From the NCBI RefSeq assembly GCF_020400655.1, contig NZ_JAINRC010000018.1, positions 62,001-126,000 of the forward strand: a DNA stretch of 64,000 nt. Reading direction: 5' to 3'. The position numbers and the translations under genes are program-made. Under the pieces are notes generated by a model. That model was given only the letters and a program-made list of their open reading frames with translations. It was not told the origin of the DNA and did no database searches. This DNA is from Streptomyces spinosus (GTDB lineage Bacteria; Actinomycetota; Actinomycetes; Streptomycetales; Streptomycetaceae). This document shows, piece by piece, positions 2,629 to 36,866 of the stretch (position 1 is its first letter; each line of letters opens with the position of its first letter).

Positions 2629-2655
2629 GACCGGGACGGGAGTCGATGTGTGACG
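2629..2655 (-). promoter_or_regulatory. ECF41-type promoter of esterase 1628-2578
   Basis: On the minus strand this reads CGTCACA, 16 bases, GGTC. The -35-like element differs from TGTCACA at the first base only. It lies about 50 bases before the GTG at 2578. Confidence 0.6.
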
Positions 2656-2744
2656 CATCGGCGAAAGCGGCACGTAAATCGCTCACCGACCACGGCCTTT
2701 CTCAAGGGTTCCCGTGCAGGCCCGAACCGACTGGTCCGGCCTCG

Positions 2745-3533
2745 TCAGTCAGAAGCCGGCCGCGTGGGGTCGGTGGGCTTCGGCAGCAGGAAACCGTCGA
2801 CGTACAGGTCGACATGCTCGTTGTAGAACGCGGTCAGTCCGGCGATGCGGTTGGCGTGGATGGTCGGGAAGTCGTACGTCCAGGCGATGTCCTCGTGGGA
2901 GGCGGCATCGCTGTCGAACGACCAGTAACTGCTCGTCGTCCCCTTGTAAGGGCATCGGGTCACCGTGCCGGAGCGCCGCAACCTGGTCCAGTCGACGGTC
3001 GCACGGTCGAGGTAGTAGCGAGTCGGCAGACCGGTCTCGAACAACTTGACGCAGTTGGGGGCTTCCGCCAGCACCACGCCGTCCACCTCGACCCTGACGC
3101 TGCTGCCGGAGCGCAGGGCGTCGACGCGGGAGTACGGACTCCGGGGATGCACGAAGACCGGCTCGTCCTCCTCGAACCAGGAGTCCAGCGCCTCCCACTC
3201 GAAACGCACGGTGTCGTGCAAGGGCCCCGGGGCACCCTCCCCCCACACCCACGCCACACCCGGCCGCACCTCCGAGCCGACCCGCAGGGTGTGACGGTGC
3301 GCCGGGCCGGCACCGAGGTGCTCCATGTGCCTGTCGTCGTCGAGGACACCGTCCACCAGATCCTCGACCGGGATGCTGAACTGGGGGTAGGCCTGCCACT
3401 CCCAGACGTAGAGCGCGCGGCGGGTGTCGAAGACGACACGTCCGCCGATCATTCCCCGGATGCGGCGGGGTACCGGCTCGACGTGCCCGACCGGGACGAT
3501 GAGGCTCGGGTGCAGGACACTCTCCGTTGCCAT
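2745..3533 (-). CDS. DUF427-domain protein (two DUF427 repeats)
   Basis: A 262-residue protein built of two DUF427-like halves: residues about 15-110 (RRIRGMIGGRVVFDTRRALYVWE) and about 150-250 (SVRVEVDGVVLAEAP, then RYYLDRATVDWTRLRRS and CPYKGTTSSYWSF). The CPYKG(T)xxYW motif and the tail IAWTYDFPTIHANRIAGLTAFYNEHVDLYVDG are characteristic of this family, whose biochemical role is not established. The ATG at 3533 follows an AAGGTGAT ribosome site; the frame remains open to 3758 but upstream codons do not look coding. No ECF41-type site was found in front of it, unlike most of its neighbours. Confidence 0.85.
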   Translation of the reverse strand: MATESVLHPSLIVPVGHVEPVPRRIRGMIGGRVVFDTRRALYVWEWQAYPQFSIPVEDLVDGVLDDDRHMEHLGAGPAHRHTLRVGSEVRPGVAWVWGEGAPGPLHDTVRFEWEALDSWFEEDEPVFVHPRSPYSRVDALRSGSSVRVEVDGVVLAEAPNCVKLFETGLPTRYYLDRATVDWTRLRRSGTVTRCPYKGTTSSYWSFDSDAASHEDIAWTYDFPTIHANRIAGLTAFYNEHVDLYVDGFLLPKPTDPTRPASD

Positions 3534-3710
3534 GGTGATCACCTTTGGTTCGCTGAGTGGTGCGCTCGCCGTGCCCGGTGTCTGCGGTCCCAGGATGACC
3601 GCCCTCGGGCCGACGAGCCCCACCTGTTTGTCGTCACACGGTGTTGCGGATCGTGTTGCACCGATCCGGACCGGGTCCTGGTCCGACGCGAGTGACTCGA
3701 TGACCGACGA

Positions 3711-3737
3711 TGTCACAGATCGAAGGTGCTCCCGGTC
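3711..3737 (+). promoter_or_regulatory. ECF41-type promoter of the CMD/AhpD gene
   Basis: TGTCACA at 3711-3717, 16 bases, GGTC at 3734-3737, about 40 bases before the ATG at 3776. Carboxymuconolactone decarboxylases are classic ECF41-associated genes. Confidence 0.75.
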
Positions 3738-3775
3738 AGTGAGCTGTAACTGTCCCACACCTCAGGAGATCCGTC

Positions 3776-4246
3776 ATGGACGCGCGAATCAACTACTTCG
3801 GCAACGCCCTGGCCGGCAAGGTCATGAAGCACCTGAACTCGGCCGGCGCGGCGGTGCACTCGGCTCTCCCCGTCGCCACCCAGGAGCTGGTGAAGATTCG
3901 TGCCAGCCAGATCAACGGCTGCGGCTTCTGCACCGACATGCACACCAAGGACGCCGCCGCCGCGGGTGAGGAGCAGCAGCGTCTGAACCTGGTGGCCGTG
4001 TGGCGCGAGGCCACCGTCTTCACGGACGCCGAGCGCGCCGCGCTTGAGCTGGCCGAGCAGGGCACGCGCATCGCGGACGGCGCGGACGGCGTGTCGGACG
4101 AGGCATGGGCGAACGCCACGAAGCACTACGACGAGGACCAGCTCGTCGCGCTGATGTCGCTGATCGCCGTGATCAACGCCTACAACCGCATCAACGTCAT
4201 CAACCGGCAGCCCGCCGGCGACTACAAGCCCGGCATGTTCGGCTGA
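3776..4246 (+). CDS. carboxymuconolactone decarboxylase / AhpD-like peroxidase
   Basis: A 156-residue helical protein of the CMD/AhpD superfamily. Residues 44-56 read SQINGCGFCTDMH, the CxxC plus histidine redox centre of alkylhydroperoxidase-type members, and EDQLVALMSLIAVINAYNRINV is the conserved C-terminal helix. Such proteins reduce peroxides or act as general disulfide redox enzymes; a true decarboxylase activity is less likely because the CxxC is intact. CMD genes are among the usual partners of ECF41 sigma factors (carboxymuconolactone decarboxylases, oxidoreductases, epimerases). A good ribosome site (AGGAGA) precedes the start and a strong hairpin follows, so it is probably monocistronic. 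Confidence 0.9.
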   Translation: MDARINYFGNALAGKVMKHLNSAGAAVHSALPVATQELVKIRASQINGCGFCTDMHTKDAAAAGEEQQRLNLVAVWREATVFTDAERAALELAEQGTRIADGADGVSDEAWANATKHYDEDQLVALMSLIAVINAYNRINVINRQPAGDYKPGMFG

Positions 4247-4277
4247 GTCAGCCGCTCCGGCCCGCCCGGCCGCAGGA

Positions 4278-6920: not shown

Positions 6921-6947
6921 TGTCACACCGGCGGACGCCCGCCGGTC
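6921..6947 (+). promoter_or_regulatory. ECF41-type promoter of cupin 7025-7519
   Basis: TGTCACA at 6921-6927, 16 bases, GGTC at 6944-6947. The leader of about 70 bases contains a small hairpin (ACCGCTG/CAGCGGT, 6962-6977). Confidence 0.7.
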
Positions 6948-7024: not shown

Positions 7025-7519
7025 ATGTCGTACCCGTACCCGGAGCAGAAGTACTGGGGAGAGGACGGTGAGGTCAGTGCCGTCTTCCGGCCGGCCGCCA
7101 CACCGCCCGCCATCGGTGAGAGCGGTACCGGGAAGGACGCCACCCACTATCTGGCGACCACTGGTACCACGCGGGGTGAGTTCGGGCTGTACCGGGTGGA
7201 GATGCGGCCCAGGGCGGGCGGGCCGAAGACGCATTTCCACAAGCGGATCTCGGAGTCCTTCTACATCCTGGACGGCACGGTGCGTGTGTTCGACGGTGTG
7301 CAGTGGGTCGATGCGCGCAAGGGAGACTTCCTGCACGTGCCCCAGGGCGGGCTGCACGCCTTCCGGAACGACTCCGACGCTCCGGCCGACATGTTGCTCC
7401 TGTTCACCCCGGGCGCCCCGCGCGAGGAGTACTTCGAGCAGGTGTCGCAGCTGGCGCACGCCTCGGAGGAGGAGCGTGCCGCGTTCTTCGACAAGCACGA
7501 CTCGTACTTCGTGGAGTAG
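7025..7519 (+). CDS. cupin-domain protein
   Basis: A 164-residue single-domain cupin. Motif 1 is visible as RAGGPKTHFHKRISESFYILDGTVRVFDG (about 59-87), with the metal-ligand pattern HxH...E, and motif 2 as GDFLHVPQGGLHAFRNDSD (about 99-117) with its histidine. The conserved ligands suggest a metal-binding cupin, either an oxygenase-like enzyme or a small-molecule sensor; the substrate is unknown. It is transcribed alone: an ECF41-type promoter lies about 80 bases upstream and a very long hairpin directly follows the stop. A strong ribosome site (AGGAGAGGA) precedes the ATG. Confidence 0.85.
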   Translation: MSYPYPEQKYWGEDGEVSAVFRPAATPPAIGESGTGKDATHYLATTGTTRGEFGLYRVEMRPRAGGPKTHFHKRISESFYILDGTVRVFDGVQWVDARKGDFLHVPQGGLHAFRNDSDAPADMLLLFTPGAPREEYFEQVSQLAHASEEERAAFFDKHDSYFVE

Positions 7520-7713: not shown

Positions 7714-8172
7714 TCAGGCGGTCGGCCGCGGTGCGCGCAGGTGGGCGCGCTCCTTGAGTTCCTCCTCGTCGACCAGTTCCAGCATGGGCTTGCCGGGAGC
7801 GCACATCATGGTGACGACGAACTCGGTCCGCTCGTCGGCGAGGGCGTTGCCGTCCTGGTAGTGGATGGCGTCGCCACCCGGCTCCCAGAAGGTGCCGCCG
7901 GCCTCGATGACGCGCTCGGGCTCGCCCTCGAGTTCGAACCGGACCGCGCCCTTGATGACGTAGCCGAACGCCGGGCCGGAGTGGCGGTGCGGCGGGGTGC
8001 CGGGGTCACCGGGCTCCCACTGGACGTGGATGGTCATCGCCGAGGCGCCCTCGGGGACGGTGACGGGCGAGGCGTCCTGGAGCATCCTCGCCGCTCGGGT
8101 CCAGCTCGGGCCGTCCTCGCCGCCGGTTCCGTGACCGTGGCCGTGGTGGGCGTGCTGTGAGTTCTCCGACAC
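7714..8172 (-). CDS. cupin-domain protein
   Basis: A 152-residue cupin starting at the GTG at 8172 (VSENSQHAHHGHGHG), supported by a GGAAGGTG ribosome site; the frame is open to 8403 but that would read through the promoter. The N-terminal 25 residues are histidine-rich (HAHHGHGHG), suggesting metal binding. PGTPPHRHSGPAFGYVIKGAVRFELEG is cupin motif 1 with HxH, and GGTFWEPGGDAIHYQDGN is motif 2. The pattern fits RmlC-like cupins that bind a metal and act on or sense small molecules. An ECF41-type promoter about 95 bases upstream stands back-to-back with that of the epimerase at 8458. Confidence 0.8.
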   Translation of the reverse strand: MSENSQHAHHGHGHGTGGEDGPSWTRAARMLQDASPVTVPEGASAMTIHVQWEPGDPGTPPHRHSGPAFGYVIKGAVRFELEGEPERVIEAGGTFWEPGGDAIHYQDGNALADERTEFVVTMMCAPGKPMLELVDEEELKERAHLRAPRPTA

Positions 8173-8266: not shown

Positions 8267-8293
8267 GACCGGGTGCCCGGCGGATCTGTGACA
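8267..8293 (-). promoter_or_regulatory. ECF41-type promoter of cupin 7714-8172
   Basis: On the minus strand TGTCACA (8293-8287), 16 bases, GGTC (8270-8267). It is divergent from the promoter at 8338-8364. Confidence 0.75.
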
Positions 8294-8337: not shown

Positions 8338-8364
8338 TGTCACAACAGCCGGACCCGTCCTGTC
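8338..8364 (+). promoter_or_regulatory. ECF41-type promoter of epimerase 8458 and probably aceE-E2
   Basis: TGTCACA at 8338-8344, 16 bases, TGTC at 8361-8364, about 95 bases before the ATG at 8458. Confidence 0.65.
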
Positions 8365-8457: not shown

Positions 8458-9198
8458 ATGAGAGTCGTCGTTGCAGGTGCCACCGGTCTGATCGGTTCAA
8501 GGACCGTCGCCAGGCTTCGGGACCACGGGGTGGAGGCCGTGGCGGTGTCCCGCGCAGCGGGCGTGGACGTCAGCACCGGACAGGGCCTCGACCAGGCGCT
8601 GCGCGCCGCCGAGGTGGTGGTCGACGTCACCGACGCACCCTCGCGGAGGCAGGAGACCAGCACGGCGTTCTTCACCACCGCGACGGGCAACCTCCTCAAG
8701 GCCGCCGCCACTGCGGGCGTCGAGCACTACGTGGCGCTGTCGGTGGTCGGCGCCGACCGGGTGGACTCGGGCTACTTCCGGGCCAAGGCGGCGCAGGAGG
8801 ACCTGGTGCGGCACACCACCGTTCCGTACTCCGTGGTGCGCGCCACCCCGTTCCACGAGTCCGTGGCGGCCGCGGTGATCGCCGGTACCCGGCCCGACGG
8901 AGTGCACGTGCCGCCGTTGCTGCTGCGTCCGGTCTCCACGGACGATGTCGCCGCGGCGGTCGCCCATGTCGCGGTGGGTCTGCCGCGGTTCGGGGTGCTC
9001 GAGGTCGCCGGCCCGGAAGAGCTCCGGTTCGAGGACGCCACCGCCGATCTGCTCACCTCCCTGGGCCGGCCCGACCCGGTGATCGCCGACGCGCGGGCCC
9101 CGTTCTTCGGCGCGGTGCTCGGGGAGCGGGCACTCCTTCCCGGGCCCGACGCCCATGCGGGCCACCAGGCCTTCACCCAGTGGCTCAAGAACCGCTGA
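8458..9198 (+). CDS. NmrA-like NAD(P)-dependent epimerase/reductase
   Basis: A 246-residue atypical short-chain dehydrogenase. [20 protein letters not shown] is the N-terminal GxxGxxG Rossmann loop and [14 protein letters not shown].. [14 protein letters not shown] replaces the usual YxxxK with the NmrA-like arrangement. It therefore probably binds NAD(P) and acts as a reductase or redox sensor rather than a sugar epimerase. It resembles the protein at 27865-28611 along its full length, including [10 protein letters not shown] and the tail LLPGPDAH. Epimerases of this type belong to the standard ECF41 gene neighbourhood. It is followed after 112 bases by aceE with no promoter-like element between, so it may lead that operon. 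Confidence 0.85.
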
Positions 9199-9310
9199 GT
9201 GCGCCGGGCGGCGACGTCTCGTCGCCCGTGATACCCACCGACCGCCCTGCGGCGCCCACCGTGTCCGCGGCCGGCGTCGCCGGCGCCCACGCAGTGACAG
9301 GAAGGCTGCC

Positions 9311-11998
9311 ATGAGTGATCCGTCCCGGCCCCCCGCGACCTCTGTGACCAGTGAGCTCGACCAGCTACCCGACCGTGACCGGGAGGAGACCGCCCAATGG
9401 CAGGCCTCCCTCGACGCCGTCGTGCGGAACGCCGGACCGGAGCGGGCGGCTTACCTGATGCGGCGGGTGCACGAGTTCGCCGCGGCGTCGGGGACGCCCC
9501 TGCCCGGACTGCTGTCCACGGACTACATCAACACCATCCCGGCCGCCGCGCAGCCGGAGTTCGACGGCGACCTGGACATGGAGTCCAGGATCACCGCGCT
9601 CAACCGGTGGAACGCCGCGGCCGTGGTCACCCGGGGTTCCCGGTTCGGACTGGGCGGCCACATCTCCACCTACGCATCGGCGGCCTGGCTCTACGAGATC
9701 GGGTTCAACCACTTCTTCCGGGGCAAGGACGGTGACGGCTCCGGCGACCAACTGTTCCTCCAGGGGCACGCCTCCCCTGGCATCTACGCCCGGCTGTTCC
9801 TCGAAGGACGGCTGAGCGGGGAGCAACTGGACGCCTTCCGGCGGGAGGCGGGCGGTCACGGCCTGCCGTCGTACCCGCACCCGCGGCGGCTGCCGTGGTT
9901 GTGGGAGTTTCCGACGGTGTCCATGGGCCTGGGCCCCCTCGGCGCCATCTACCAGGCCCGCTTCAACCGCTATCTGCAGGCTCGCGGCATCAAGGACACC
10001 TCCGCCTCGCGGGTGTGGGCGTTCCTGGGCGACGGGGAGATGGACGAGCCGGAGTCGATGGCCGCCCTGGCCCTGGCCTCCCGCGAGGGCCTGGACAACC
10101 TGACGTTCGTCATCAACTGCAACCTCCAGCGCCTGGACGGGCCGGTGCGGTCCAACTCGAAGATCGTCCAGGAGCTGGAGGCACGGTTTCGCGGGGCGGG
10201 CTGGAACGTGGTCAAGACCCTGTGGGGCGCGGCCTGGGACGCGCTGCTGGCACAGGACACCACCGGCGACCTCGTGCGGCGCCTGGGCGACGTGCCCGAC
10301 GCGCAGCTGCAGACGCTGGCCGCACGGGACGCCGCCTACATACGCAGGAAATTCTTCACCGGTGACGCCCTGTCCGCCATGTCCGCCGCCCTGAGCGACG
10401 CGCAGGTGGTCGACCTGTTCGAGAACTCCCGCGGCGGACACGAGCCGTTGAAGGTGTACGCCGCCTACCGGGCCGCGGTGGAGCACCGGGGCACGCCGAC
10501 GGTGGTCCTCGCCCAGACGGTGAAGGGTCACACACTGGGTTCCGCGTTCGAGTCCCGCAACGCCAACCACCAGATGAAGAAGCTCACGCTGGAGCAGTTC
10601 CGCGAGATGCGGGACCTGTTGGGGCTTCCCATTCCCGACAGCGCGCTCGCCGGTGACCAGGTCCCGTACTGGCACCCGGGGGAGAACTCGCCGGAGGTGC
10701 GGTACCTGCGCGAGCGCCGCGCCGCGCTGGGCGGTCCCGCCCCTCTGCGGCGGGTGATCGCCAAGCCGCTGCCGGAGCCGCCCGCCAAGCCCTTCGAGGC
10801 GTTGGAGAAAGGTTTCGGCCACCAGGAGGTCGCCACCACGATGGCGTTGGTGCGGCTGGTCAGGGATCTGATGCGCGACGAGCGCGGCGGAGCGCGCTGG
10901 GTGCCGATCATCCCCGACGAGGCCCGTACGTTCGGCATGGAATCGATGTTCCCCACGGCCGGCATCTACTCGCCGCTGGGCCAGAACTACGACCCGGTCG
11001 ACGCGGACCAGTTGCTCCACTACAAGGAGAGCACGACCGGACAGCTGCTGCTCGAGGGCATCACGGAGGCCGGTTCGGTGGCCGAGTTCGCCGCAGCGGC
11101 GACCTCCTACGCCACGCATGGCGAGCCGATGATCCCGTTCTACATCTTCTACGCCATGTTCGGCTTCCAGCGCACCGGCGACCAGTTCTGGGCGCTCGGC
11201 GACCAGATGGGCCGCGGCTTCGTCGTCGGCGGCACCGCGGGGCGCACGACCATGACCGGCGAGGGACTGCAGCACGGGGACGGGCACTCACACCTGCTGG
11301 CCGCCACCAATCCGGCGGCGATCAGCTACGACCCGGCCTTCGCGTACGAGATCGCGGTGATCGTCCGGGACGGTCTGCGCCGGATGTACGGCGAGCAGCC
11401 GGAGGACGTCTTCTACTACCTGACCGTGTACAACGAGCCGAAGCACCAGCCGGCCATGCCCGCGCTGCCGGGTGTCGAGGAGGGCATCGTCCGGGGCATC
11501 TACCGGTACCGGCCCGCGGAAGCCGCCGCGGCGGGACCCCGGCTCCAGTTGCTGTCGTCCGGTACGGCCATCCACTGGGCTCTGCGAGCGCAGGAACTCC
11601 TCGCCTCCGACTGGAACGTACACGCCGACGTGTGGTCGGTGACGTCGTGGACGGAGCTGCGCCGCGACGCGATGCGCGCCGACGACGCCCGGATGCGCGG
11701 TGAGGATCGCATTCCGTTCGTCACCCGGGCACTGGCCGGTGCGCCGGGGCCGGTGCTGGCCGTCAGCGACTGGATGCGGCAGGTGCCCGATCAGATCAGC
11801 CAGTGGATCGAGCAGGACTACTACTCGCTGGGCACCGACGGTTTCGGTCTGTCCGACACCCGCGAGGACGTGCGCCGCTACTTCGGTGTGGACGCCGAGT
11901 CGATCGTGGTGACCGCGCTGGACCGGCTGGCCCGGGCCGGGCGGCTCCCGCCGGCGACGGTCGCGCAGGCCCGCGCCCGCTACGGCCTGGGCCGGTGA
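9311..11998 (+). CDS. aceE: pyruvate dehydrogenase E1 component, homodimeric type
   Basis: An 895-residue homodimeric pyruvate dehydrogenase E1. It decarboxylates pyruvate with thiamine diphosphate and acetylates the lipoyl group of E2. [34 protein letters not shown] is the ThDP-binding GDG...N motif; NALNRWNAA-like and [27 protein letters not shown] near residue 95-140 and the tail segments [53 protein letters not shown] are strongly conserved. The ATG at 9311 follows an AGGAAGG ribosome site; upstream in-frame codons overlap the epimerase. The E2 gene follows 100 bases downstream. Actinomycetes usually carry another aceE for growth; this one probably serves a condition-specific complex. Confidence 0.93.
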
Positions 11999-12098
11999 CC
12001 GGCGGGGAAGCGCGACCGACCCCCCATGACGCAGGTCGTGGACGACAGGACCGGAGGGCCGTTGCGCCCGGCCGGTCCGTGAGGAGCTGAACGACATC

Positions 12099-13298
12099 AT
12101 GACGGTTACCGTGACCCTGCCGGCCCTCGGCGAGTCCGTCACCGAGGGCACCGTGACCCGCTGGCTGAAACAGATCGGCGAACACGTCGAGGCCGACGAA
12201 CCCTTGCTGGAGGTCTCCACCGACAAGGTCGACACCGAGATCCCCTCCCCCGCGGCCGGCGTTCTGCTGAGCATTGCCGTCGCCGAGGACGAGACCGCCG
12301 AGGTCGGCGCCGAGCTCGCCTTCATCGGTACGGCGGACGCCGTCCCGGAGGCCCCACCCGCGCCCCCGGCCGCGGCTCCACAAGCCGCCCCGGCGCCGTC
12401 TGCCAGCCCCGCGCCGGCACCGGTCACGCCGCCTCCTGCCGTACCGGTCGCCCCGACCCCGCCCCCCGCACCCGCACCCACGGCGGCACCACCGGTGCCG
12501 GCGCCGGTCGCGCGGGTGTCACCCGCACCCGCTGTGCCGGCCGCCCCGGCGGCGCAGGAGTCCGTGCTGCGCGGGCGCACGGTCCCGATGACCCGTATCC
12601 GCCGGGCCATCGGGGACAACCTGAAGAAGGCCCTGCTGGAGCAGGCGCAGCTGACCAGCACGGTCGAGGCCGACGTCACCCGGCTCATGCGGCTGCGAAA
12701 CCGGGCGAAGGACGGTTTCCTCGCCCGCGAGGGCCTCAAGCTGTCCCCGATGCCGTTCTTCGTCAAGGCGGCGGCCCAGGCGTTGAAGGCGCATCCGGTC
12801 GTCAACGCCAGGATCGACGAGGGCGAGGGGACGATCACCTACTTCGACACCGAGAACGTCGGCATCGCGGTCGACACCGAGAACGGTCTGATGACCCCGG
12901 TGATCAAGGCCGCCGGCGACCTGACCGTCGCAGGGATCGCCCGGGCCGTCCACGACCTGGCCGACCGGGCCCGTAGTGGCCACCTCACCCCCGACGACGT
13001 GTCGGGCGCGACCTTCACGATCTCCAACACCGGTTCGCGCGGTGCCCTGTTCGACACCGTCATCGTGCCGCCGCGCCAGGCCGCCATCCTGGGCGTGGGC
13101 GCCACGGTCAGGAGGCCTGGGGTCGTGCGCAGCGCCGGCGAGGAGGTCATCGGCATCCGGGACCTGGTACACCTGTCGTTGTCGTACGACCACAGGCTGG
13201 TGGACGGAGCGGATGCGGCGCGCTACCTGACCACGGTCAAGGAGATTCTGGAGTCCGCGGCCTTCGAGGGCGACCTGTACCCCGACGCCGGGACCTGA
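12099..13298 (+). CDS. lipoyl E2 acyltransferase lacking a peripheral-subunit-binding domain
   Basis: A 399-residue dihydrolipoamide acyltransferase. Residues 1-77 form one lipoyl domain with the modified lysine at K43 (LEVSTDKVDTEIPSP). Residues about 80-155 are an Ala/Pro linker, and residues about 158-399 are the catalytic core, ending with the active-site motif SYDHRLVDG (His 365). Standard E2 proteins carry a 35-40-residue peripheral-subunit-binding domain in the linker; none is recognisable here, so how E1 and E3 dock is unclear. It follows aceE and is presumably its acyl acceptor; no E3 gene is in the window. The core alone cannot distinguish acetyl from succinyl specificity, but the neighbour suggests acetyl. 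Confidence 0.88.
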   Translation: MTVTVTLPALGESVTEGTVTRWLKQIGEHVEADEPLLEVSTDKVDTEIPSPAAGVLLSIAVAEDETAEVGAELAFIGTADAVPEAPPAPPAAAPQAAPAPSASPAPAPVTPPPAVPVAPTPPPAPAPTAAPPVPAPVARVSPAPAVPAAPAAQESVLRGRTVPMTRIRRAIGDNLKKALLEQAQLTSTVEADVTRLMRLRNRAKDGFLAREGLKLSPMPFFVKAAAQALKAHPVVNARIDEGEGTITYFDTENVGIAVDTENGLMTPVIKAAGDLTVAGIARAVHDLADRARSGHLTPDDVSGATFTISNTGSRGALFDTVIVPPRQAAILGVGATVRRPGVVRSAGEEVIGIRDLVHLSLSYDHRLVDGADAARYLTTVKEILESAAFEGDLYPDAGT

Positions 13299-15184: not shown

Positions 15185-15211
15185 GACCGGAAACAGGCCG
15201 AAGGCGTGACA
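15185..15211 (-). promoter_or_regulatory. ECF41-type promoter upstream of secreted hydrolase
   Basis: On the minus strand TGTCACG (15211-15205), 16 bases, GGTC (15188-15185). The distance to the ATG at 14933 is about 250 bases; the 314-base gap holds nothing else I can identify. Confidence 0.55.
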
Positions 15212-24622: not shown

Positions 24623-24649
24623 CGTCACAGGAACGGTTACTCGTCGGTC
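24623..24649 (+). promoter_or_regulatory. ECF41-type promoter upstream of OsmC
   Basis: CGTCACA at 24623-24629, 16 bases, GGTC at 24646-24649. The leader to the GTG at 24866 is about 210 bases and contains the hairpin at 24737-24763. Confidence 0.55.
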
Positions 24650-25428: not shown

Positions 25429-25815
25429 TCAGGACGGGAACCACAGGTCCGCGTCGGCGGCTTCCTCCTTGCGGACGGCGAAGACGGAGATCTCCTTCTT
25501 GTGGAGACCCTGCCGGGGAAGGGCCGAGACCAGCGGGTGGTCCGCGTCCACGCCGCCACGGTGGTCCCGCTCCGGCGTCGCGGCTACGAAGAACTCCGCG
25601 TTGACGGACCGGTAGTGCGCCCAGTGCCGCGGCAGGTCGTCCTCGTAGAAGATGGCCTCCACGGGACAGACAGGTTCACAGGCGTGGCAGTCGACGCACT
25701 CCGCGGGGTTGATGTAGAGGGTGCGTGAACCCTCGTAGATGCAGTCGACGGGGCATTCCGTGACACACGCCCGGTCCTTGATGTCGACGCAGGGCTGCGC
25801 GATGACGTACGTCAT
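25429..25815 (-). CDS. 7Fe (3Fe-4S/4Fe-4S) ferredoxin with C-terminal extension
   Basis: A 128-residue FdxA-type ferredoxin. MTYVIAQPCVDIKDRACVTECPVDCIYEG and CVDCHACEPVCPVEAIFYEDD hold the cysteines of a 3Fe-4S plus 4Fe-4S pair. The core ends near residue 75; the remaining roughly 50 residues (VAATPERDHRGGV...KEEAADADLWFPS) are an unusual extension compared with the 105-108-residue norm. A GAGGAGG-rich ribosome site precedes the ATG at 25815. It is the likely electron partner of the reductase at 18217 and of oxidoreductases in the island. The ferredoxin at 58857-59183 is a close paralogue in a different operon. Confidence 0.9.
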   Translation of the reverse strand: MTYVIAQPCVDIKDRACVTECPVDCIYEGSRTLYINPAECVDCHACEPVCPVEAIFYEDDLPRHWAHYRSVNAEFFVAATPERDHRGGVDADHPLVSALPRQGLHKKEISVFAVRKEEAADADLWFPS

Positions 25816-25885: not shown

Positions 25886-25912
25886 GACCGGGGACTCCGT
25901 CTCGTTGTGACA
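25886..25912 (-). promoter_or_regulatory. ECF41-type promoter of ferredoxin 25429-25815
   Basis: On the minus strand TGTCACA (25912-25906), 16 bases, GGTC (25889-25886). It is divergent from 25959-25985. Confidence 0.75.
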
Positions 25913-25958: not shown

Positions 25959-25985
25959 TGTCACAAAGCCCCGCCTGGCCTGGTC
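25959..25985 (+). promoter_or_regulatory. ECF41-type promoter of flavoprotein 26020
   Basis: TGTCACA at 25959-25965, 16 bases, GGTC at 25982-25985, about 35 bases before the GTG at 26020. Confidence 0.75.
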
Positions 25986-26019: not shown

Positions 26020-27750
26020 GTGGCCATCACCGAACAACGACTGTCGACCATGGTCCTCGTGATCGGTAACGGCGGAGCCGGCCTGCGGGCGGCGATCGAA
26101 CTGGCCGAGGCCGGCGTCGATGTCGTTGCCGTCGGCAAACGCCCCAAGGAGGACACCCACACCTCCCTGGCCGCCGGCGGGATCAACGCGGCCCTGGCCA
26201 CGATGGACCCCGAGGACAGCTGGCAGCAGCACGCCGCGGACACCCTCAAGGAGAGTTACCTGCTCGGCGACCCCCGCACCGCGGAGATCGTCACCCAGGG
26301 CGCGGCCCTTGGCATCGACGACCTGGAGCGCTACGGCATGGCTTTCGCCCGCGAGGGAGACGGCCGCATCTCGCAGCGCTTCTTCGGAGCGCACAAGTAT
26401 CGCCGCACCGCCTTCGCCGGCGACTACACCGGCCTGGAGATCCAGCGCACGCTCATCCGGCGCGCGAGCCAGCTGGACATACCCGTGCTCGACACCGTCT
26501 ACATCACCCGTCTCCTGGTCCACGACGGTGCCGTCTTCGGGGCCTATGGCTTCGACCTCACCAACGGCACCCGTTACCTCATCCACGCGGACGCCGTCAT
26601 CCTCGCGGCCGGCGGGCACACTCGCATCTGGCGGCGCACCTCGTCGCGACGGGACGAGAACACCGGCGACTCCTTCCGTCTGGCGGTCGAGGCCGGGGCC
26701 CGCCTGCGCGACCCCGAACTGGTCCAGTTCCACCCCTCCGGCATCATCGAACCGGAGAACGCCGCCGGCACCCTCGTCAGTGAGGCGGCCCGCGGTGAGG
26801 GCGGCATTCTGCGCAACGCCCTCGGCGAGCGGTACATGAGCAGGTACGACCCTCAGCGGATGGAACTGTCCACCCGTGACCGCGTGGCCCTCGCCTCCTA
26901 CACCGAGATCAAGGAAGGCCGCGGCACCCCCAACGGCGGGGTCTGGCTCGACGTCTCCCACCTCCCCCGACAGACGATCATGAACCGGCTGCCCAGGGTC
27001 TACCAGACGCTCCTCGATCTGCAGATGCTCGACATCACCCGCGAACCCATCGAGGTCGCCCCCACCGCGCACTACTCGATGGGCGGCGTGTGGGTCCGCC
27101 CGGAGGATCACAGCACCGACGTGCGCGGCCTGTACGCCATCGGCGAGGCCTCCAGCGGCCTCCACGGCGCCAACCGCCTCGGCGGCAACAGTCTCATCGA
27201 ACTGCTCGTCTACGGCCGCATCACCGGACAGGCCGCGGCCGCCTACTCGGAGTCACTCGCCGCGCAGCCCCGCTCCGCGGCCGCGGTGGCCCGGGCGCGC
27301 GCCGAAGTCGACGAGCTCCTCGCCGCCGACGGACCTGAGAACGTCCGCGCCCTCCAGCGCGCCATCCGCAACACCATGACCGAGCACGCCGGTGTCGTCC
27401 GCGACGAACAGGGTCTGCGCACGGGCCTGGCGGAGCTGGACACGATCGAGAAGCGCATGGAGAACATCGGGGTCCACCCCGACATCGCCGGCTTCCAGGA
27501 CCTCGCCCACGCCTTCGACCTCAAGTCGGCCGCCCTGGCGGCCCGGGCCACCCTCGAAGCGGCGCTGGAACGCAGGGAGACCCGCGGTTGTCACAATCGC
27601 AGCGACTTCCCTGCCATGGATCCCGCCTTCCGGGTCAATCTCGTCTGGTCCCCGACGACCGGAATCACCCATGAGAGCATTCCGCCCATTCCGGGCGAGA
27701 TCGCATCCCTCATGGAGGACGTCTCCACCGATGGAAAGCTCGTCGAATAG
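26020..27750 (+). CDS. succinate dehydrogenase/fumarate reductase-type flavoprotein
   Basis: A 576-residue flavoprotein of the SdhA/FrdA/L-aspartate-oxidase family. MVLVIGNGGAGLRAAIELAEAG binds FAD, THTSLAAGGINAAL carries the covalent-flavin-type histidine region, and LVQFHPSG, PTAHYSMGGV, GLHGANRLGGNSLIELLVYGR and the tail RRETRGCHNRSDFP are family hallmarks. It interconverts succinate and fumarate or oxidises aspartate; without adjacent iron-sulfur or membrane subunits it may be a soluble fumarate reductase fed by ferredoxin or quinol. The GTG at 26020 has GGGAGC before it; an ATG at 25993 lies only 8 bases after the -10 and has no ribosome site. Confidence 0.88.
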   Translation: MAITEQRLSTMVLVIGNGGAGLRAAIELAEAGVDVVAVGKRPKEDTHTSLAAGGINAALATMDPEDSWQQHAADTLKESYLLGDPRTAEIVTQGAALGIDDLERYGMAFAREGDGRISQRFFGAHKYRRTAFAGDYTGLEIQRTLIRRASQLDIPVLDTVYITRLLVHDGAVFGAYGFDLTNGTRYLIHADAVILAAGGHTRIWRRTSSRRDENTGDSFRLAVEAGARLRDPELVQFHPSGIIEPENAAGTLVSEAARGEGGILRNALGERYMSRYDPQRMELSTRDRVALASYTEIKEGRGTPNGGVWLDVSHLPRQTIMNRLPRVYQTLLDLQMLDITREPIEVAPTAHYSMGGVWVRPEDHSTDVRGLYAIGEASSGLHGANRLGGNSLIELLVYGRITGQAAAAYSESLAAQPRSAAAVARARAEVDELLAADGPENVRALQRAIRNTMTEHAGVVRDEQGLRTGLAELDTIEKRMENIGVHPDIAGFQDLAHAFDLKSAALAARATLEAALERRETRGCHNRSDFPAMDPAFRVNLVWSPTTGITHESIPPIPGEIASLMEDVSTDGKLVE

Positions 27751-27791: not shown

Positions 27792-27818
27792 CGTCACAGA
27801 AATCGTGCGCAGCCGGTC
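27792..27818 (+). promoter_or_regulatory. ECF41-type promoter of epimerase 27865
   Basis: CGTCACA at 27792-27798, 16 bases, GGTC at 27815-27818, about 47 bases before the ATG. Confidence 0.7.
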
Positions 27819-27864: not shown

Positions 27865-28611
27865 ATGAAGGTCGTAGTGATCGGCGGTACCGGACTGATC
27901 GGCTCGAAGCTGGTCGCCAGGCTCGAGGAGCACGGTCACGAGGCCGTACCGGCGGCACCCAACACCGGCGTCAACACGCTCACGGGCGAGGGCCTGGCCG
28001 AGGTCCTCGACGGTGCCTCGGTCGTGGTGGACGTCTCCAACTCGCCTTCCTTCGCGGACGACGCCGTCATGGAGTTCTTCCGTACCTCGACCACCAACCT
28101 CCTCAAGGCGGAGGCGGACGCCGGGGTGACCCACCACGTGGCCCTCTCCGTGGTGGGTACGGAACGGCTCGAGGAAAGCGGCTACTTCCGTGCCAAGCAG
28201 GCTCAGGAGGGGCTGATCAAGGACTCGGGAATCCCGTACTCCATCGTGCACGCCACGCAGTTCTTCGAGTTCATGAAGGGCATCGCCGATTCGGCGACCG
28301 ACGGTGACACCGTCCGCCTGGCCCCGGTCAAGATCCGGCCCATCCACTCCGACGACGTGGCCGCCGCCGTCGGCCGCACCGCTGTCGATACTCCGGTCAA
28401 CGGAGTGGTGGAGGTCGCCGGGCCCGAGGTGTTCCAGCTGGACGAGCTGATCCGAAAGGGCCTGGCCGCCAAGGGCGACCCGCGCACGGTGGTGTCCGAT
28501 GTGCACGCCCCCTACTTCGGTGCGGAGCTGCAGGAGACCACCCTGCTTCCCGGTCCGGACGCGCACATCGCGGACACCCGTTTCGCCGACTGGCTCGCGC
28601 AGCGACGGTGA
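27865..28611 (+). CDS. NmrA-like NAD(P)-dependent epimerase/reductase
   Basis: A 248-residue NAD(P)-binding protein opening MKVVVIGGTGLIGSKLVARL (GGxGxxG Rossmann loop). It carries VTHHVALSVVGTERLEESGYFRAKQAQEGLIKDSGIPYSIVHATQFFEF, the NmrA-like core, and ends [20 protein letters not shown]. It is a paralogue of the gene at 8458-9198, with similar length and near-identical motifs, suggesting duplication inside the regulon. Substrate unknown. A good ribosome site (AAAGGATTT) precedes the ATG, and two hairpins follow the stop. Confidence 0.87.
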   Translation: MKVVVIGGTGLIGSKLVARLEEHGHEAVPAAPNTGVNTLTGEGLAEVLDGASVVVDVSNSPSFADDAVMEFFRTSTTNLLKAEADAGVTHHVALSVVGTERLEESGYFRAKQAQEGLIKDSGIPYSIVHATQFFEFMKGIADSATDGDTVRLAPVKIRPIHSDDVAAAVGRTAVDTPVNGVVEVAGPEVFQLDELIRKGLAAKGDPRTVVSDVHAPYFGAELQETTLLPGPDAHIADTRFADWLAQRR

Positions 28612-29500: not shown

Positions 29501-29767
29501 TCACGCGGCGGTTTCCGTCACCCCGGGCGTACGCGCCGTGCGCCGTCGCATGGCGCGGCGCTCCCCTTCCGTCGTACCGCCCCAGATACCCTCCACCGGA
29601 TCCGCGGCGACGGCCCACGCCAAACACCGCTCCCGCACGGGGCAGCGCCGGCAGACGGCCTTCGCCTCATCCGTCTGTATCGCCACCAGGCCGCTGTTGA
29701 CGTTGCCTATCGGGAAGAAGAGATCAGGGTCCTGGCCTCGGCAAAGCGCCCGTTCGCGCCAGTCCAT
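29501..29767 (-). CDS. WhiB-like [4Fe-4S] transcription factor
   Basis: An 88-residue Wbl protein. Four cysteine ligands of the iron-sulfur cluster are at C9, C39, C42 and C48 (VCRRCPVRERC), followed by the G(V/I)WGG turn as VEGIWGGTTEGERRAMRRR and a basic DNA-binding tail. Wbl proteins bind the principal sigma factor and respond to oxygen, NO or redox state. An excellent ribosome site (AGGAGGTG) precedes the ATG. It has an ECF41-type promoter about 105 bases upstream, so ECF41 control may feed a second, redox-responsive regulator. The specific Wbl subclass cannot be fixed by eye. Confidence 0.92.
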   Translation of the reverse strand: MDWRERALCRGQDPDLFFPIGNVNSGLVAIQTDEAKAVCRRCPVRERCLAWAVAADPVEGIWGGTTEGERRAMRRRTARTPGVTETAA

Positions 29768-29871: not shown

Positions 29872-29898
29872 GACCGAGCGGTCGATGTGTGTGTGACA
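29872..29898 (-). promoter_or_regulatory. ECF41-type promoter of the WhiB-like gene
   Basis: On the minus strand TGTCACA (29898-29892), 16 bases, GGTC (29875-29872). The rest of the gap to 30226 holds no gene or matching element that I can identify. Confidence 0.7.
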
Positions 29899-30682: not shown

Positions 30683-30709
30683 TGTCACAGCTCCCGCCAC
30701 TACCTGGTC
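30683..30709 (+). promoter_or_regulatory. ECF41-type promoter upstream of coiled-coil gene 30868
   Basis: TGTCACA at 30683-30689, 16 bases, GGTC at 30706-30709, about 160 bases before the ATG at 30868. Confidence 0.65.
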
Positions 30710-31947: not shown

Positions 31948-33297
31948 TCATCCGGCGACGACATCCTTGGGCTCCTCGCTGCGCCGTGGGGTGCCGCTGG
32001 AGACGAAGGCGTCTCGCGGGTGCTGGACCGAGACGAGGGAGACGATGTCCCGGCCGTAGAAGGCGGCGGTGGCCCACACCGCGAAAACACGGATCTTGCG
32101 TTCCCAGCTGGGTACGGCCAGGACGTGGTATCCCCGGTGCATCAGCCAGGCCGGGAAACCCTTGATGACCAGACGCCGGTACTGGAAGATGCCGCGGCCC
32201 AGCCCGAGTGTGGCCACCACGCCCAGACTGTGGTGCACGTAGTCCTTGGCCGGCCGGCCCCGAAGTGACGCCAGGATGTTCTTGGCCAGGAGCTTGCCCT
32301 GGCGGACGGCGTGCTGCGCGTTGGGCACCGTCCGGGCCCCCGGCCGCCCTGCGGCGAGGTCGGGCACGGAGGCGTCGTCACCGGCCGCCCAGACGTCCGC
32401 CACCACCTCGGTGTCCGTACCGACCCGGAGATCCGCCCGCACCGTCAGCAGGCCCCGTTCGTCGACGGGAAGGTCCGTGTGGTTGTGCACGATCGGGTTG
32501 GACGCGTTGCCCGCCGCCCACACGATCAGGCCGGAGTCGTACTCCTCCCCGTCGGACAGCACGACGTGCCCGTCTTCCGCGGAGACGAGCTGGGTGTTCA
32601 GATGCACCCGGCCGCCCCGCTTCTCCAGCGAGCGCACCACCCACTCACCCGGCCGGTCGGTCACCTCGGGAAGGATCCGGCCCCGAGCCTCGACCAGGTG
32701 GAAGCCCAGTTCTGCCGCATCGATCTCCGGGTAGTGCTTCAGCAGGGCGGTCGCCAGGGCCAGCAGTTCGCCGAAGCCCTCCACTCCGGAGAACCCGCCT
32801 CCGACCACGGTGACGGTGAGCAGCTTGCGTCGCTCGGGACCGCGCGGAAGGGTCGCCGCGCGATCGAACGAGGTGAGCAGCCGGTCGCGGATCGCCACGG
32901 CCTCCTCGACGTGCTTCAGTCCGTACGCCTGGTCGCTCAGCCCCGGGATCGGGAACGTGCGCGTAACGGCCCCTGCCGTCACCACCAGCACGTCGTAGTG
33001 GAGGTCGAAGTCCGGCCCGGTCTCCGGCCGGACCGTGACCGTGCGCGCGCTGTTGCGGATCTCCGTCACCGCGCCCGCGATCACACGGGTCCGGCGCAGG
33101 TGCCGCCGCAGCGAGACCGCGGCATGCCGGGCCTCGACCGACCCGGCGACCACCTCGGGGAGGAACGGCTGGTATGTCATGTACGGGCGAGGGTCGACCA
33201 CGGTGACGCGTGCCTCACCTCGACGCAACTTCTTCTCCAGGCCCCACGCGGTGTAGAAACCCGCGTAACCACCACCCACGATCAAGATCTCACGCAC
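31948..33297 (-). CDS. type II NADH dehydrogenase
   Basis: A 449-residue non-proton-pumping NADH:quinone oxidoreductase-type flavoprotein. ILIVGGGYAGFYTAWGLE binds FAD, VTVVGGGFSGVEGFGELLAL binds NADH, and DVWAAGDDASVPDL..TVPNAQHAVRQGKLLAKNI is the conserved C-terminal FAD/quinone motif. The tail (FPAWLMHRGYHVLAVPSWERKIRVFAVWATAAFYGRDIVSL) includes the amphipathic membrane-binding helices. It would feed NADH electrons to menaquinone. The GTG at 33297 has AGAGGA upstream; an alternative in-frame start at 33324 lies only 8 bases after the promoter -10. ECF41-type promoter about 35 bases upstream. Confidence 0.9.
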   Translation of the reverse strand: MREILIVGGGYAGFYTAWGLEKKLRRGEARVTVVDPRPYMTYQPFLPEVVAGSVEARHAAVSLRRHLRRTRVIAGAVTEIRNSARTVTVRPETGPDFDLHYDVLVVTAGAVTRTFPIPGLSDQAYGLKHVEEAVAIRDRLLTSFDRAATLPRGPERRKLLTVTVVGGGFSGVEGFGELLALATALLKHYPEIDAAELGFHLVEARGRILPEVTDRPGEWVVRSLEKRGGRVHLNTQLVSAEDGHVVLSDGEEYDSGLIVWAAGNASNPIVHNHTDLPVDERGLLTVRADLRVGTDTEVVADVWAAGDDASVPDLAAGRPGARTVPNAQHAVRQGKLLAKNILASLRGRPAKDYVHHSLGVVATLGLGRGIFQYRRLVIKGFPAWLMHRGYHVLAVPSWERKIRVFAVWATAAFYGRDIVSLVSVQHPRDAFVSSGTPRRSEEPKDVVAG

Positions 33298-33331: not shown

Positions 33332-33358
33332 GACCGGCCAGCACCACTTGGTGTGACG
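33332..33358 (-). promoter_or_regulatory. ECF41-type promoter of type II NADH dehydrogenase
   Basis: On the minus strand CGTCACA (33358-33352), 16 bases, GGTC (33335-33332). The remaining gap to 33810 contains no convincing gene. Confidence 0.7.
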
Positions 33359-34703: not shown

Positions 34704-34730
34704 TGTCACATGATCCGTGCCTGCCCGGTC
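34704..34730 (+). promoter_or_regulatory. ECF41-type promoter of sigma factor 34872
   Basis: TGTCACA at 34704-34710, 16 bases, GGTC at 34727-34730, about 140 bases before the ATG. A second sigma gene in the window with the motif it probably recognises. Confidence 0.7.
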
Positions 34731-34871: not shown

Positions 34872-35774
34872 ATGGACCAGGCCGGTGACGCGGTGCCGAT
34901 CGCGGATCTGCTCGACGAACGACGGCATCTGCTCAACGTCGCCTACTGGATGCTGGGCACAGGTCCCGAGGCCGAGGACGCCGTCACCGAGGCCTACCGG
35001 CAGTGGTACGACCTGTCGGACCTCCAGAAGGCGCGCATCACCGACCCGGGTGCCTGGCTGACCGAAACCACGGGCTCCATCTGCCTGGCACGCCTCGTCC
35101 TGCCCGAGCGAGGACCCACAGGGCCGGGCGGGGAGGACGGCGACGCGGTGGCGGGACTCCACCAGGCCTGGGAGGAGGAGATCAGCGGCGCCCTGCTCGA
35201 CGCCCTGGAGGCTCTGTCCCCCACCGAGCGGGCGGCGTTCGTCCTCAACGACGTCTTCGCCATGCCACCACGAGCGGTCGCCGGCATCGTGGGGCGGACG
35301 CCACACGAATGCGCCGAACTCGCCGACCGCGCCCGCCGCAGTGTGCGTCGCACCCGCTCACACCCCACCACACCACAGCAGCACGACAGGATCGTCCGCG
35401 CGGTCCGGCGCGCCTGTGCCACGGCCGACGCCACTCATCTGGCATCCCTGCTGGCACCCGACGCCACTGCGTTCTTCGACGGTGGCGGCAAGGTGCGTGC
35501 CCTCACCCGGCCGGTGCACGGCAACCAGCACGTCGCCCGCACTCTCCTCACCCTCCTGACCCCCCGACCGCGCACGACTCTGCACCTCAGCCCGGCCAAC
35601 GGCCGTACCGCCATCGTCGTACGCCACAACGCCCAGGTAGCCGCCGTCATCAGTTTCGACATCGCCGACCACCACGTCTTCCAGGTCTGGGCCGTCCTCA
35701 ACCCCGACAAGCTGCGCACCTGGAACCGCCCCCACACCCCTGGCGCCCCCACTTCCACAGCCCTCGGAGACTGA
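34872..35774 (+). CDS. ECF41-type RNA polymerase sigma factor, divergent
   Basis: A 300-residue ECF41-like sigma factor. Region 2 reads LLNVAYWMLGTGPEAEDAVTEAYRQWYD, region 4 reads ALSPTERAAFVLNDVFAMPPRAVAGIVGRTPHECAELADRARRSVRR, and the C-terminal SnoaL-like domain keeps both ECF41 signatures, DGGGKV and NPDKL, in textbook form. The central linker is divergent and lacks the VGPWLPEPVD stretch of its two neighbours. Ribosome site GAAGGAGG. Its promoter carries the same TGTCACA-N16-GGTC motif, implying auto- or cross-regulation with 23710-24606. Confidence 0.88.
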   Translation: MDQAGDAVPIADLLDERRHLLNVAYWMLGTGPEAEDAVTEAYRQWYDLSDLQKARITDPGAWLTETTGSICLARLVLPERGPTGPGGEDGDAVAGLHQAWEEEISGALLDALEALSPTERAAFVLNDVFAMPPRAVAGIVGRTPHECAELADRARRSVRRTRSHPTTPQQHDRIVRAVRRACATADATHLASLLAPDATAFFDGGGKVRALTRPVHGNQHVARTLLTLLTPRPRTTLHLSPANGRTAIVVRHNAQVAAVISFDIADHHVFQVWAVLNPDKLRTWNRPHTPGAPTSTALGD

Positions 35775-36022
35775 GGCGCTCCCACACCGTGTGCCCGGTC
35801 AGGCCGAGAACACAGCACTTTTTCCGCTGCTCACAACAACCGGTCACGAACGACCTGTAACGGATCCGGGATGGCCCTGGTCTAAGGGGCAGACACAGTT
35901 GGAATCAATGTGACTTGTTGTGGCGTGTCCTGGAGTCGGCCGATGGGCGGACCGTCACGCCGCAGCCGTACGAGCGCGCCCGCCGGCAGCACCGGTTCGC
36001 GGGGAACGGAGCCAGAAGGATC

Positions 36023-36754
36023 ATGCATCGTGAGACGCCCTCCATGGGAGGCGACCTGGACGAGGCCGTGTCTGTCTTCGTGGAGCTCCGCCCACGTCTG
36101 TTCGCCATCGCGTACCGCGTTCTGGGCAGTGCGACGGAGGCCGAGGACGTGGTCCAGGACGTATGGATGCGCTGGCAGAGAACGGACCGCTCGGTGGTGG
36201 TGAACCCTGCGGCGTTCCTGTCGAGTGCGACGACACGGCTGGCCATCAACGTGGCCCAGTCGGCCCGGGTTCGCCGCGAAACCTACATCGGCCCCTGGTT
36301 GCCCGAGCCCGTCGACACGAGCAGCGACCCGGAGACCGGCGCGCAGCGCGCCGAGGCGCTCGAGCTGGCCCTGCTGCTCCTCCTGGAGAAGCTGAACCCG
36401 AGCGAGCGGGCCGCCTACGTACTGCGGGAGGCGTTCGACTACGGCTACGCCGAGATCGCCGAGATACTGGGCCTGACCTCTGTCAATGCCCGCAAGATCG
36501 TGAGCCGGGCCCGCAAGCACCTGTCGGCCGGGCATCGGCAGTCTGTGGACACGGCCGAGCACCGACGGCTCCTCGATGCCTTCGTCTCGGCGGCGCGGAC
36601 CGGAGACGTCGCGTCGCTGGAGGCTGTTCTGGCCCGAAGAGACGTCCGTCAGCCCGGTGGCAGGTTCTCCGGTCCCGCTCACGGTCGACAGGACAAGACG
36701 CCGGGCGCCACGCTGTCCGTCCCGGTGTTCGGTGCGTTGCTCGAAGCCGGTTGA
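36023..36754 (+). CDS. ECF41-type sigma factor lacking its C-terminal regulatory domain
   Basis: A 243-residue sigma factor very similar to the one at 23710 through regions 2 and 4 (LFAIAYRVLGSATEAEDVVQDVWMRWQ; YVLREAFDYGYAEIAEILGLTSVNARKIVSRARKHL), including VRRETYIGPWLPEPVD. After HRRLLDAFVSAARTGDVASLEAVLA the sequence changes to an unrelated Arg/Gly/Pro-rich tail of about 40 residues, so the SnoaL-like domain with DGGG and NPxKL is absent. I see no remnant of that domain in another frame before the terminator. In ECF41 proteins deletion of this domain changes activity, so this may be a deregulated or inactive form. The ATG at 36023 has AGAAGGA before it. Confidence 0.82.
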   Translation: MHRETPSMGGDLDEAVSVFVELRPRLFAIAYRVLGSATEAEDVVQDVWMRWQRTDRSVVVNPAAFLSSATTRLAINVAQSARVRRETYIGPWLPEPVDTSSDPETGAQRAEALELALLLLLEKLNPSERAAYVLREAFDYGYAEIAEILGLTSVNARKIVSRARKHLSAGHRQSVDTAEHRRLLDAFVSAARTGDVASLEAVLARRDVRQPGGRFSGPAHGRQDKTPGATLSVPVFGALLEAG

Positions 36755-36797
36755 CCTGAGGTGACGCCTGCCCTCGGGCGTCCGGCCGCGTAAGCGG

Positions 36798-36840
36798 CAG
36801 TGCTGGTCGCAGCCACTCGTTGTGGCTGCGACCAGCACTG
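36798..36840 (+). terminator. 19-bp perfect hairpin terminator overlapping the next promoter
   Basis: Arms CAGTGCTGGTCGCAGCCAC (36798-36816) and 36822-36840 are perfectly complementary with loop TCGTT. The right arm ends in the first two bases of the TGTCACA at 36839. Confidence 0.8.
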
Positions 36841-36866
36841 TCACAACACGCTTCAGACCTGTCGTC
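36839..36866 (+). promoter_or_regulatory. ECF41-type promoter of winged-helix gene 36971
   Basis: TGTCACA at 36839-36845, 17 bases, CGTC at 36863-36866, directly abutting the terminator of the truncated sigma gene. Confidence 0.65.

Follow-up and report, generated by a model that had tools for sequence, protein, structure and literature searches.

The window analysed here is a stretch of 64,000 nucleotides from Streptomyces spinosus (contig NZ_JAINRC010000018.1, our contig 9 or C9, positions 62001–126000, of a 9.17-Mb genome), in which a sequence-only reading had described 20 promoter-like elements, each consisting of [T/C]GTCAC[A/G], a spacer of 16 or 17 bases and NGTC, and had proposed that they form a clustered regulon of extracytoplasmic function (ECF) sigma factors of the widely distributed ECF41 group. 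All 20 elements were recovered, each at its position and on its strand, and a perfect TGTCACA was counted in 13 of them, as claimed. The proposed spacing and −10 element held for 18 of the 20, which share the strict form [T/C]GTCAC[A/G]-N16-[G/T]GTC (−10 element GGTC in 16, TGTC in two), but not for the plus-strand elements at 23599..23626 and 36839..36866, which read N17-CGTC. The first, a weak match upstream of a sigma gene, is not conserved in the relatives compared (one of which reads TGCCACG there) and was rejected as a promoter. The second has no conserved counterpart in the relatives compared and was also rejected; no gene was called within 1 kb downstream of it, so the claim that every element lies upstream of a gene does not extend to this one. 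Both are probably chance matches. Two loose matches absent from the original list, at 7572 and 7595, were likewise discarded as promoters: they sit in an inverted repeat (7572–7622) between convergent cupin genes, a similar repeat is found in a relative, and the repeat is likely to be a terminator hairpin that mimics a −35 element.

The other 18 elements precede genes whose products were assigned from Pfam matches, with NCBIfam results given where obtained; genes were called with our own caller, and start codons are approximate. The minus-strand site 2629..2655 (CGTCACA-N16-GGTC) serves an esterase gene (alpha/beta hydrolase, Abhydrolase_3; 1628..2578, −) and has a counterpart at all three orthologues found in four other islands. 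It is followed by plus-strand sites for a carboxymuconolactone decarboxylase (CMD) family gene (site 3711..3737; gene 3776..4246, +) and a cupin gene (6921..6947; 7025..7519, +), by a minus-strand site for a second cupin gene (8267..8293; 7714..8172, −), and by a plus-strand site with a TGTC −10 element (8338..8364) for an NAD(P)-binding NmrA-like gene and a probable operon of pyruvate dehydrogenase E1-type and 2-oxoacid dehydrogenase E2 genes (together 8545..13298, +; Pfam and NCBIfam). The minus-strand site 15185..15211 (TGTCACG) lies 251 bp upstream of a hydrolase gene (14091–14933) and is variably conserved, being missing before the orthologue in two of the four other islands. A gene for a QcrB-like cytochrome b subunit (15248..16882, −; NF050120 over cut-off) has its site at 17119..17145 (−), a methyltransferase gene (17261..18025, +) has a site with a TGTC −10 element at 17225..17251 (+), and the site at 18128..18154 (+) heads an operon of ferredoxin–NAD reductase-like, PIG-L deacetylase, AMP-ligase-like and acyl reductase/aldehyde dehydrogenase-like genes (18217..22872, +; NCBIfam matches below the cut-offs). 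On weak Pfam matches, the last three of these, in a row at 19594–22872, resemble a LuxE/LuxC-type pair that makes an aldehyde.

Further to the right, sites were found for a DUF5134 gene (site 23553..23579, −; gene 22880–23509), an OsmC-like gene (24623..24649, +; 24866..25363, +), a 4Fe-4S ferredoxin gene (25886..25912, −; 25429..25815, −), a gene for an FAD flavoprotein resembling fumarate reductase and succinate dehydrogenase flavoproteins (25959..25985, +; 26020..27750, +; all NCBIfam matches below cut-off) and an NmrA/epimerase-like NAD(P)-binding protein gene (27792..27818, +; 27865..28611, +). The minus-strand site 29872..29898 stands 105 bp before a WhiB-family gene (29501..29767, −; Pfam Whib, 1.1e-25) that our caller had missed. 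The remaining sites precede the gene for an 84-aa protein (30683..30709, +; 30868–31122), a gene for an NDH-2/SQR-like pyridine nucleotide-disulphide oxidoreductase using FAD (33332..33358, −; 31948..33297, −; NCBIfam below cut-offs) and a sigma gene, here called sigma B (34704..34730, +; 34872..35774, +). The CMD, oxidoreductase and NmrA/epimerase target classes that are typical of the ECF41 context are thus all present beside sites, as had been proposed. ECF41 genes typically have no evident anti-sigma gene close by. A scan for anti-sigma factors revealed no named family at E 0.001 among the island genes scanned, yet two cupins (7714–8172 and 30170–30661) give matches to PF12973, the cupin-like domain found in the anti-sigma factor ChrR (E values 9e-4 and 1.2e-6), the former weakly, and these ChrR-like cupins could, from this resemblance, bind an island sigma.

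The assignment of the island sigmas to the ECF41 family was borne out, since the SigX4 and SigJ models match and SigJ is the best solved relative. However, only one of the three sigma genes that the earlier reading called ECF41-type is complete. This is sigma A1 (23710..24606, +; TIGR02957 over cut-off), an ECF41/SigJ-like protein with the WLPEP, DGGG and NPAKL motifs, which has the protein features of the group (a sigma2–sigma4 core extended at the C-terminus by SnoaL, and the motifs WLPEP, DGGG and NPDKV/L), even if its SnoaL_2 match is weak (E 0.02). Sigma A2 (36023..36754, +; 243 aa) has WLPEP intact and lacks the SnoaL domain, and sigma B has sigma region 4, DGGGK and a SnoaL domain with NPDKL, but neither WLPEP nor region 2.4. 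Three further sigma genes lie in the island upstream of the window, and the genome contains 11 strong genes of the SigX4 type, six in the island and five elsewhere. The phylogenetic analysis of 151 sigma sequences with FastTree (local support only) gave four island classes: A1 (47 rows), A2 (32 rows, 27 adjoining a B gene, with WLPEP present), A3 (13 rows, including three in our island upstream of the window) and B (44 rows). Of these, A1 is intact, in A2 and A3 the SnoaL sensor is lost or degraded, and B retains the sensor without region 2.4 or the WLPEP linker.

The sites are strongly clustered in the genome. In the window, TGTCACA-N15..18-GTC was counted 14 times against 0.63 expected, a number reached by none of 100 shuffles. 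The YGTCACR heptamer alone was not enriched in the whole window (64 observed, 72.9 expected) and was rejected as the signal, which lies in the bipartite form. TGTCACA occurs 18 times at 1–37 kb and not at all at 37–64 kb, in agreement with the remark that few matching hexamers occur at 38–64 kb. Genome-wide, YGTCACR-N16-GGTC had 50 matches, versus 12 for a reversed-pattern control, and 21 of the 50 fall within C9:36229–96730 (60.5 kb), where the density in the rest of the genome predicts 0.19 (Poisson P 1.5e-35). The proposal of a dense local cluster with few matches elsewhere was therefore upheld, and the motif is far from equally dense over the genome. The cluster thus extends from a point 25.8 kb outside the window, on its left, to window position 34730. 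The island (C9:36.2–98.8 kb) contains 54 genes (53 from our caller plus whiB), of which 24 are headed by a site, a coverage that rises to 35 genes if same-strand followers (gap of at most 160 bp) are included; in a 140-kb stretch, 23 genes, plus whiB, were assigned a site by prediction from sequence. Over its whole length, the island encodes two fumarate reductase-type FAD flavoproteins, two OsmC proteins, CMD, cupins, NmrA-like proteins, hydrolases and WhiB, as well as ferredoxin, ferredoxin reductase, the NDH-2-like oxidoreductase, QcrB-like cytochrome b, methyltransferase and 2-oxoacid dehydrogenase E1/E2.

Among the genes that lack a site of their own are most of the sigma genes (five of six) and three large LuxR-type ATPase regulators (C9:44093–46900, 54108–56774 and 59527–62298, the last reaching window position 298), which have AAA_16 and, in two cases, a GerE match and are a possible signal input. 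The left edge of the island (C9:37228–38999) is occupied by a flavohaemoglobin-like gene and an Rrf2-type regulator, as in nitric oxide responses. Satellite sites on other contigs (C39:5020, 6910 and 11505, and C28:41586) precede NmrA-like, MarR-like, ferritin-like (PF12902) and glyoxalase genes, each of which has a relative in the islands compared. A plasmid origin was considered and rejected: 23 PLSDB records match window positions 15000–36900, with a best coverage of 12% and none of at least 80%, so no plasmid in that database carries the whole island. Small site clusters can nevertheless occur on large plasmid-classed replicons, as three sites within 2 kb (G019:C2:1432269–1434275, locus L049) lie on the probable equivalent of NZ_CP108509.1 (1,601,525), which is classed as a plasmid and is one of the 23 matching PLSDB records.

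The same promoter architecture was found in other actinobacteria, although species kinship affects all the cross-species counts given here. When public genomes were scanned with the island flavoprotein alone, 567 loci were obtained, the best 80 of which form a set that is biased by having been found through one protein of the regulon; these 80 loci contained 476 sites, versus six reversed-control matches, in 1.55 Mb. Between two and 14 sites were present at 65 loci, mostly from Streptomyces, but also from Nocardiopsis sp. FR4, Actinacidiphila, two Catenulispora metagenome-assembled genomes and one Micromonospora. The other 15 (two Streptomyces loci, L119 and L128, and 13 loci from genera that we take to belong to Microbacteriaceae) had no site or one, with a flavoprotein that is still 83–86% identical. 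At the 13 Microbacteriaceae loci (L116, L117, L120, L122–L127 and L129–L132), the flavoprotein is 83–85% identical, no sigma gene lies nearby and the motif matches once at most, suggesting that the enzyme is older than sigma control or has escaped from it.

Among the 65 site-bearing loci, the spacer is 16 bases long in 397 of 413 TGTCACA-N13..20-NGTC matches, all other spacings totalling 16, and the first base of the −10 element in these 397 sites is G in 335, T in 53, A in six and C in three, i.e. G or T in 388. The GTC is followed by an AT-rich triplet, as in an opening promoter. The earlier interpretation of the motif as an ECF41 promoter was thus correct for the TGTCACA −35 element and the spacer (16 ± 1 in ECF41 promoters), but not for the −10 element, which is GGTC or TGTC here instead of the published CGTC and suggests a variant specificity. 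In a set of 572 sites that counts two loci twice (from S. flaveolus and S. pseudovenezuelae, each under two names), 515 have the start of a same-strand gene no more than 400 bp away (median distance 56 bp), and only three of these are inside genes. At loci with at least three sites, divergent operon heads carried a site in 237 of 390 cases, heads preceded by a gap of more than 120 bp in 169 of 335 and those with 31–120 bp in 73 of 185, whereas operon-internal genes, with a gap of at most 30 bp, did so in only one of 72.

Five large Streptomyces islands were compared gene by gene. The numbers of genes with an assigned site were 23 in our genome, 22 in G020 (S. flaveolus NRRL B-1589, with an island on contig JNWV01000045), 25 in G188, 25 in G157, despite its shuffled gene order, and 14 in G103. 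A site was kept at 58 of 68 orthologues of our site-bearing genes (21/22 in G020, 16/18 in G188, 14/16 in G157 and 7/12 in G103), versus seven of 77 orthologues of genes without a site. Gene 82381, which is operon-internal here, heads a gene run in G157 and has its own site there. In 21 pairs from our island and S. flaveolus, identity was 0.98 in the −35 element, 0.97 in the −10 element, 0.79 in the spacer and 0.57 in the upstream flank; the motif values are inflated, as the pairs were chosen because both members match the motif, but 21 of 22 orthologues do match.

We therefore consider it probable, at roughly three chances in four, that the island is a physically clustered regulon under ECF41-type sigma factors whose genes it contains, and that the sites are promoters read by clade A, with A1 the most likely reader. 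The sites and the sigma genes occur together: the 80 loci comprise 53 with at least two sites and a sigma gene, 15 with neither, 12 with sites only and none with a sigma gene only. An even draw of 246 genomes from the genus (our own included), free of the bias of the flavoprotein set, was surveyed for exact sites (TGTCACA-N15-CGGTC) and A-type sigma genes (match at E 1e-100 or better). At least five exact sites were found in 30 genomes, with a reversed-control maximum of three (clustering was not assessed in all 30), and these comprise 29 of the 58 genomes with an A-type sigma but only one of the 188 without (Fisher 1.8e-20, kinship uncorrected). Several observations weigh against this interpretation. 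In the island itself, 19 of the 54 genes are outside any site or site-headed operon, and no convincing site precedes the gene for the intact sigma, A1. Elsewhere, 12 of the 65 site-bearing loci lack a sigma gene in the DNA examined, and G103 retains the site at only seven of its 12 orthologues. Among the 58 genomes that encode an A-type sigma, half (29) have fewer than five exact sites and six have none, so an A-type sigma is not always paired with a large regulon, and genome G121 has eight exact sites without an A-type sigma. The best A1 match in G121 is only about 50% identical, and its sites are perhaps recognised by a different sigma clade that shares the promoter code.

Some of these points would also be expected if the promoters were real but the main readers were ECF factors, of the ECF41 group or not, with genes elsewhere in the genome, the island sigmas being local specialists or relics. 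The five other strong SigX4-like genes in the genome, the loci with sites and no sigma gene, the lack of a site at A1 and the six A-type genomes without any exact site are consistent with this view. However, canonical ECF41 factors appear to use CGTC, as an ECF41 gene lies alongside six of the 29 CGTC loci inspected in 3-kb pieces (and on our C33), while only three of the 397 island-type sites have CGTC; moreover, high site numbers track the A-type sigma across the 246 genomes. We therefore regard a reader from outside as unlikely. CGTC matches are otherwise scattered over the genus (0–8 per genome in 61 genomes) and many are presumably due to chance. The −10 element of the mapped Sinorhizobium meliloti RpoE9 promoter is also CGTC (PMC6180224).

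Much less probable still is a reading of TGTCACA-N16-GGTC as an operator, bound by a DNA-binding regulator, instead of a promoter used by a sigma factor. Candidates for such a regulator exist in the island (the three LuxR-type ATPases and the WhiB protein), but the element is non-palindromic and directed toward genes, with a fixed spacing, a −10-like GTC before AT-rich bases and the short median distance to the start codon given above, and its −35 half is identical to the published ECF41 −35 element. As for a chance or compositional artefact, two of the 20 listed sites and the matches at 7572 and 7595 behave in this way, but the shuffles, the reversed-pattern controls, the conservation and the placement at operon heads make this explanation negligible for the cluster as a whole.

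If the island is indeed controlled by its own clade A sigmas, A1 would be held off by its own SnoaL domain, whose NPAKL end would act against the WLPEP linker in the manner described for ECF41 proteins, until a small molecule or a redox change released it. RNA polymerase carrying a clade A sigma, most likely A1, would then read each supported TGTCACA-N16-[G/T]GTC site, and released A1 would fire about 24 promoters at once. The output would consist of flavoproteins, ferredoxin, ferredoxin reductase, the NDH-2-like oxidoreductase, cytochrome b, CMD, OsmC and cupins, together with NmrA-like enzymes, hydrolases, a WhiB protein and sigma B, from which we infer an accessory redox or detoxification response. 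Region 2.4 contains a glutamine in 92 of 95 A sigmas and an arginine in 11 of 12 canonical relatives; the replacement of C by G or T at the first −10 base, with Gln for Arg in region 2.4, probably insulates the island from ordinary CGTC-type ECF41 factors of the same cell. The pairing of Gln with GGTC nevertheless contrasts a single clade with 12 other sequences, and may reflect mere ancestry.

The differences between the sigma classes suggest a more tentative extension, which we consider possible but doubtful, in which the ECF41 switch has been split in two within an insulated GGTC/Gln network. According to this scheme, B would be a former sigma factor that has lost the −10-reading segment and the WLPEP linker and supplies its NPDKL SnoaL sensor in trans to A2, as an anti-sigma or co-sigma factor, and would be autoregulated through its own GGTC promoter. 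A2, the usual neighbour of B, would keep WLPEP and promoter reading, its own SnoaL domain being lost or degraded in many species. The WLPEP columns are gaps in all 44 B rows of the tree, and B has a ratio of nonsynonymous to synonymous substitution rates (dN/dS) of 0.26; in a set of 49 B genes, some of them cut or short, NPxKL was found in 43 and DGGG in 35, and 30 adjoin an A sigma gene. In the predicted model of sigma B, of moderate confidence (pLDDT 75, pTM 0.54), the segment after the region-2 helices appears unstructured, and SigJ is the best fold match, with a poor whole-chain superposition (TM about 0.4). Neither A2, without SnoaL, nor B, without WLPEP and region 2.4, has the full set of ECF41 protein features. 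Between our A2 and that of S. flaveolus, dN/dS is 0.22 in the core, which is thus under constraint, and 1.06 in the tail past residue 195, which is not. As read off the tree, the NPxKL end is missing in 1/47 A1, 19/32 A2 and 13/13 A3 rows, a contrast between clades that may partly reflect a few old events (nine changes on the tree). An effect of B adjacency on sensor loss was not retained and is a lead only: the raw comparison is significant (19/30 versus 16/68, Fisher p 2.4e-4), but a tree-aware test with five supported pairs is not. Wecke et al. report that a truncated ECF41 factor of 204 residues is hyperactive, one of 192 weaker and one of 167 dead (PMC3426412). We also rejected A2 as a naturally hyperactive truncated sigma, as A2 lacks DGGG and its activity is not predictable from that truncation series.

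The island shares with known ECF41 systems (Ecf41Bli, Ecf41Rsp, SigJ of Mycobacterium tuberculosis and RpoE9 of S. meliloti) the protein family, the TGTCACA −35 element, the spacer of about 16 bases and the CMD, oxidoreductase and epimerase targets, and sigma A1 shares with them the WLPEP linker, the DGGG and NPxKL motifs and the SnoaL domain. It differs in having about 24 predicted promoters in 60 kb, a GGTC or TGTC −10 element, Gln instead of Arg in region 2.4, and several sigma paralogues, some without SnoaL and one without region 2.4. ECF41 factors are described by Wecke et al. as generally controlling a single target, with a CGTC −10 element (PMC3426412), and the published target studies that we consulted, including those in Bacillus licheniformis and Rhodobacter sphaeroides, assign one gene or operon to each member. 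Compared with this norm of one or a few targets beside the sigma gene, the 23 genes plus whiB with predicted sites would indeed constitute the unusually large local regulon that had been suggested, with a clustering that is significant genome-wide. An ECF41 factor of Azospirillum, known to us from the title of a paper, reportedly controls motility and lateral flagella, and wider ECF41 regulons may already be known in that genus.

The closest clustered ECF case that we found is MibX/MibW of Microbispora corallina, in which a cluster-encoded ECF sigma drives five promoters (of genes and operons) of a lantibiotic cluster (PMC4973701). This resembles the island in that an ECF sigma drives several promoters of the gene cluster containing it, but MibX has a GAACC-N15-GCTAC motif, a membrane anti-sigma factor (MibW), a single biosynthetic pathway and only those five promoters. 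In S. tsukubaensis, the ECF56 factor SigG1, which bears a SnoaL domain, is controlled by a separate partner protein, RsfG (PMC7730460). SigG1 is likewise a SnoaL-bearing Streptomyces ECF factor and was the second-ranked entry among the fold matches of the predicted sigma B model, but it belongs to another ECF group, and RsfG reportedly lacks any conserved Pfam domain; sigma B, by contrast, is related to the ECF41 factors themselves. Our literature searches, within the collection available, recognised no island of the present type, a result that does not establish its absence from print. From its sequence, we judge the island to be a variant of the ECF41 type that differs in the size of the regulon, the −10 code and the architecture of its sigmas, and that is recurrent, clustered and served by multiple promoters. 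For one ECF41 clade, a recurrent island of some two dozen promoters would overturn the one-target generalisation, and it would offer a natural system for studying how −10 specificity diverges when sigma paralogues coexist, with a single base set against a single residue. As it presents a complete set of targets next to several natural losses of the sensor, it would also provide a way to find the ECF41 signal.

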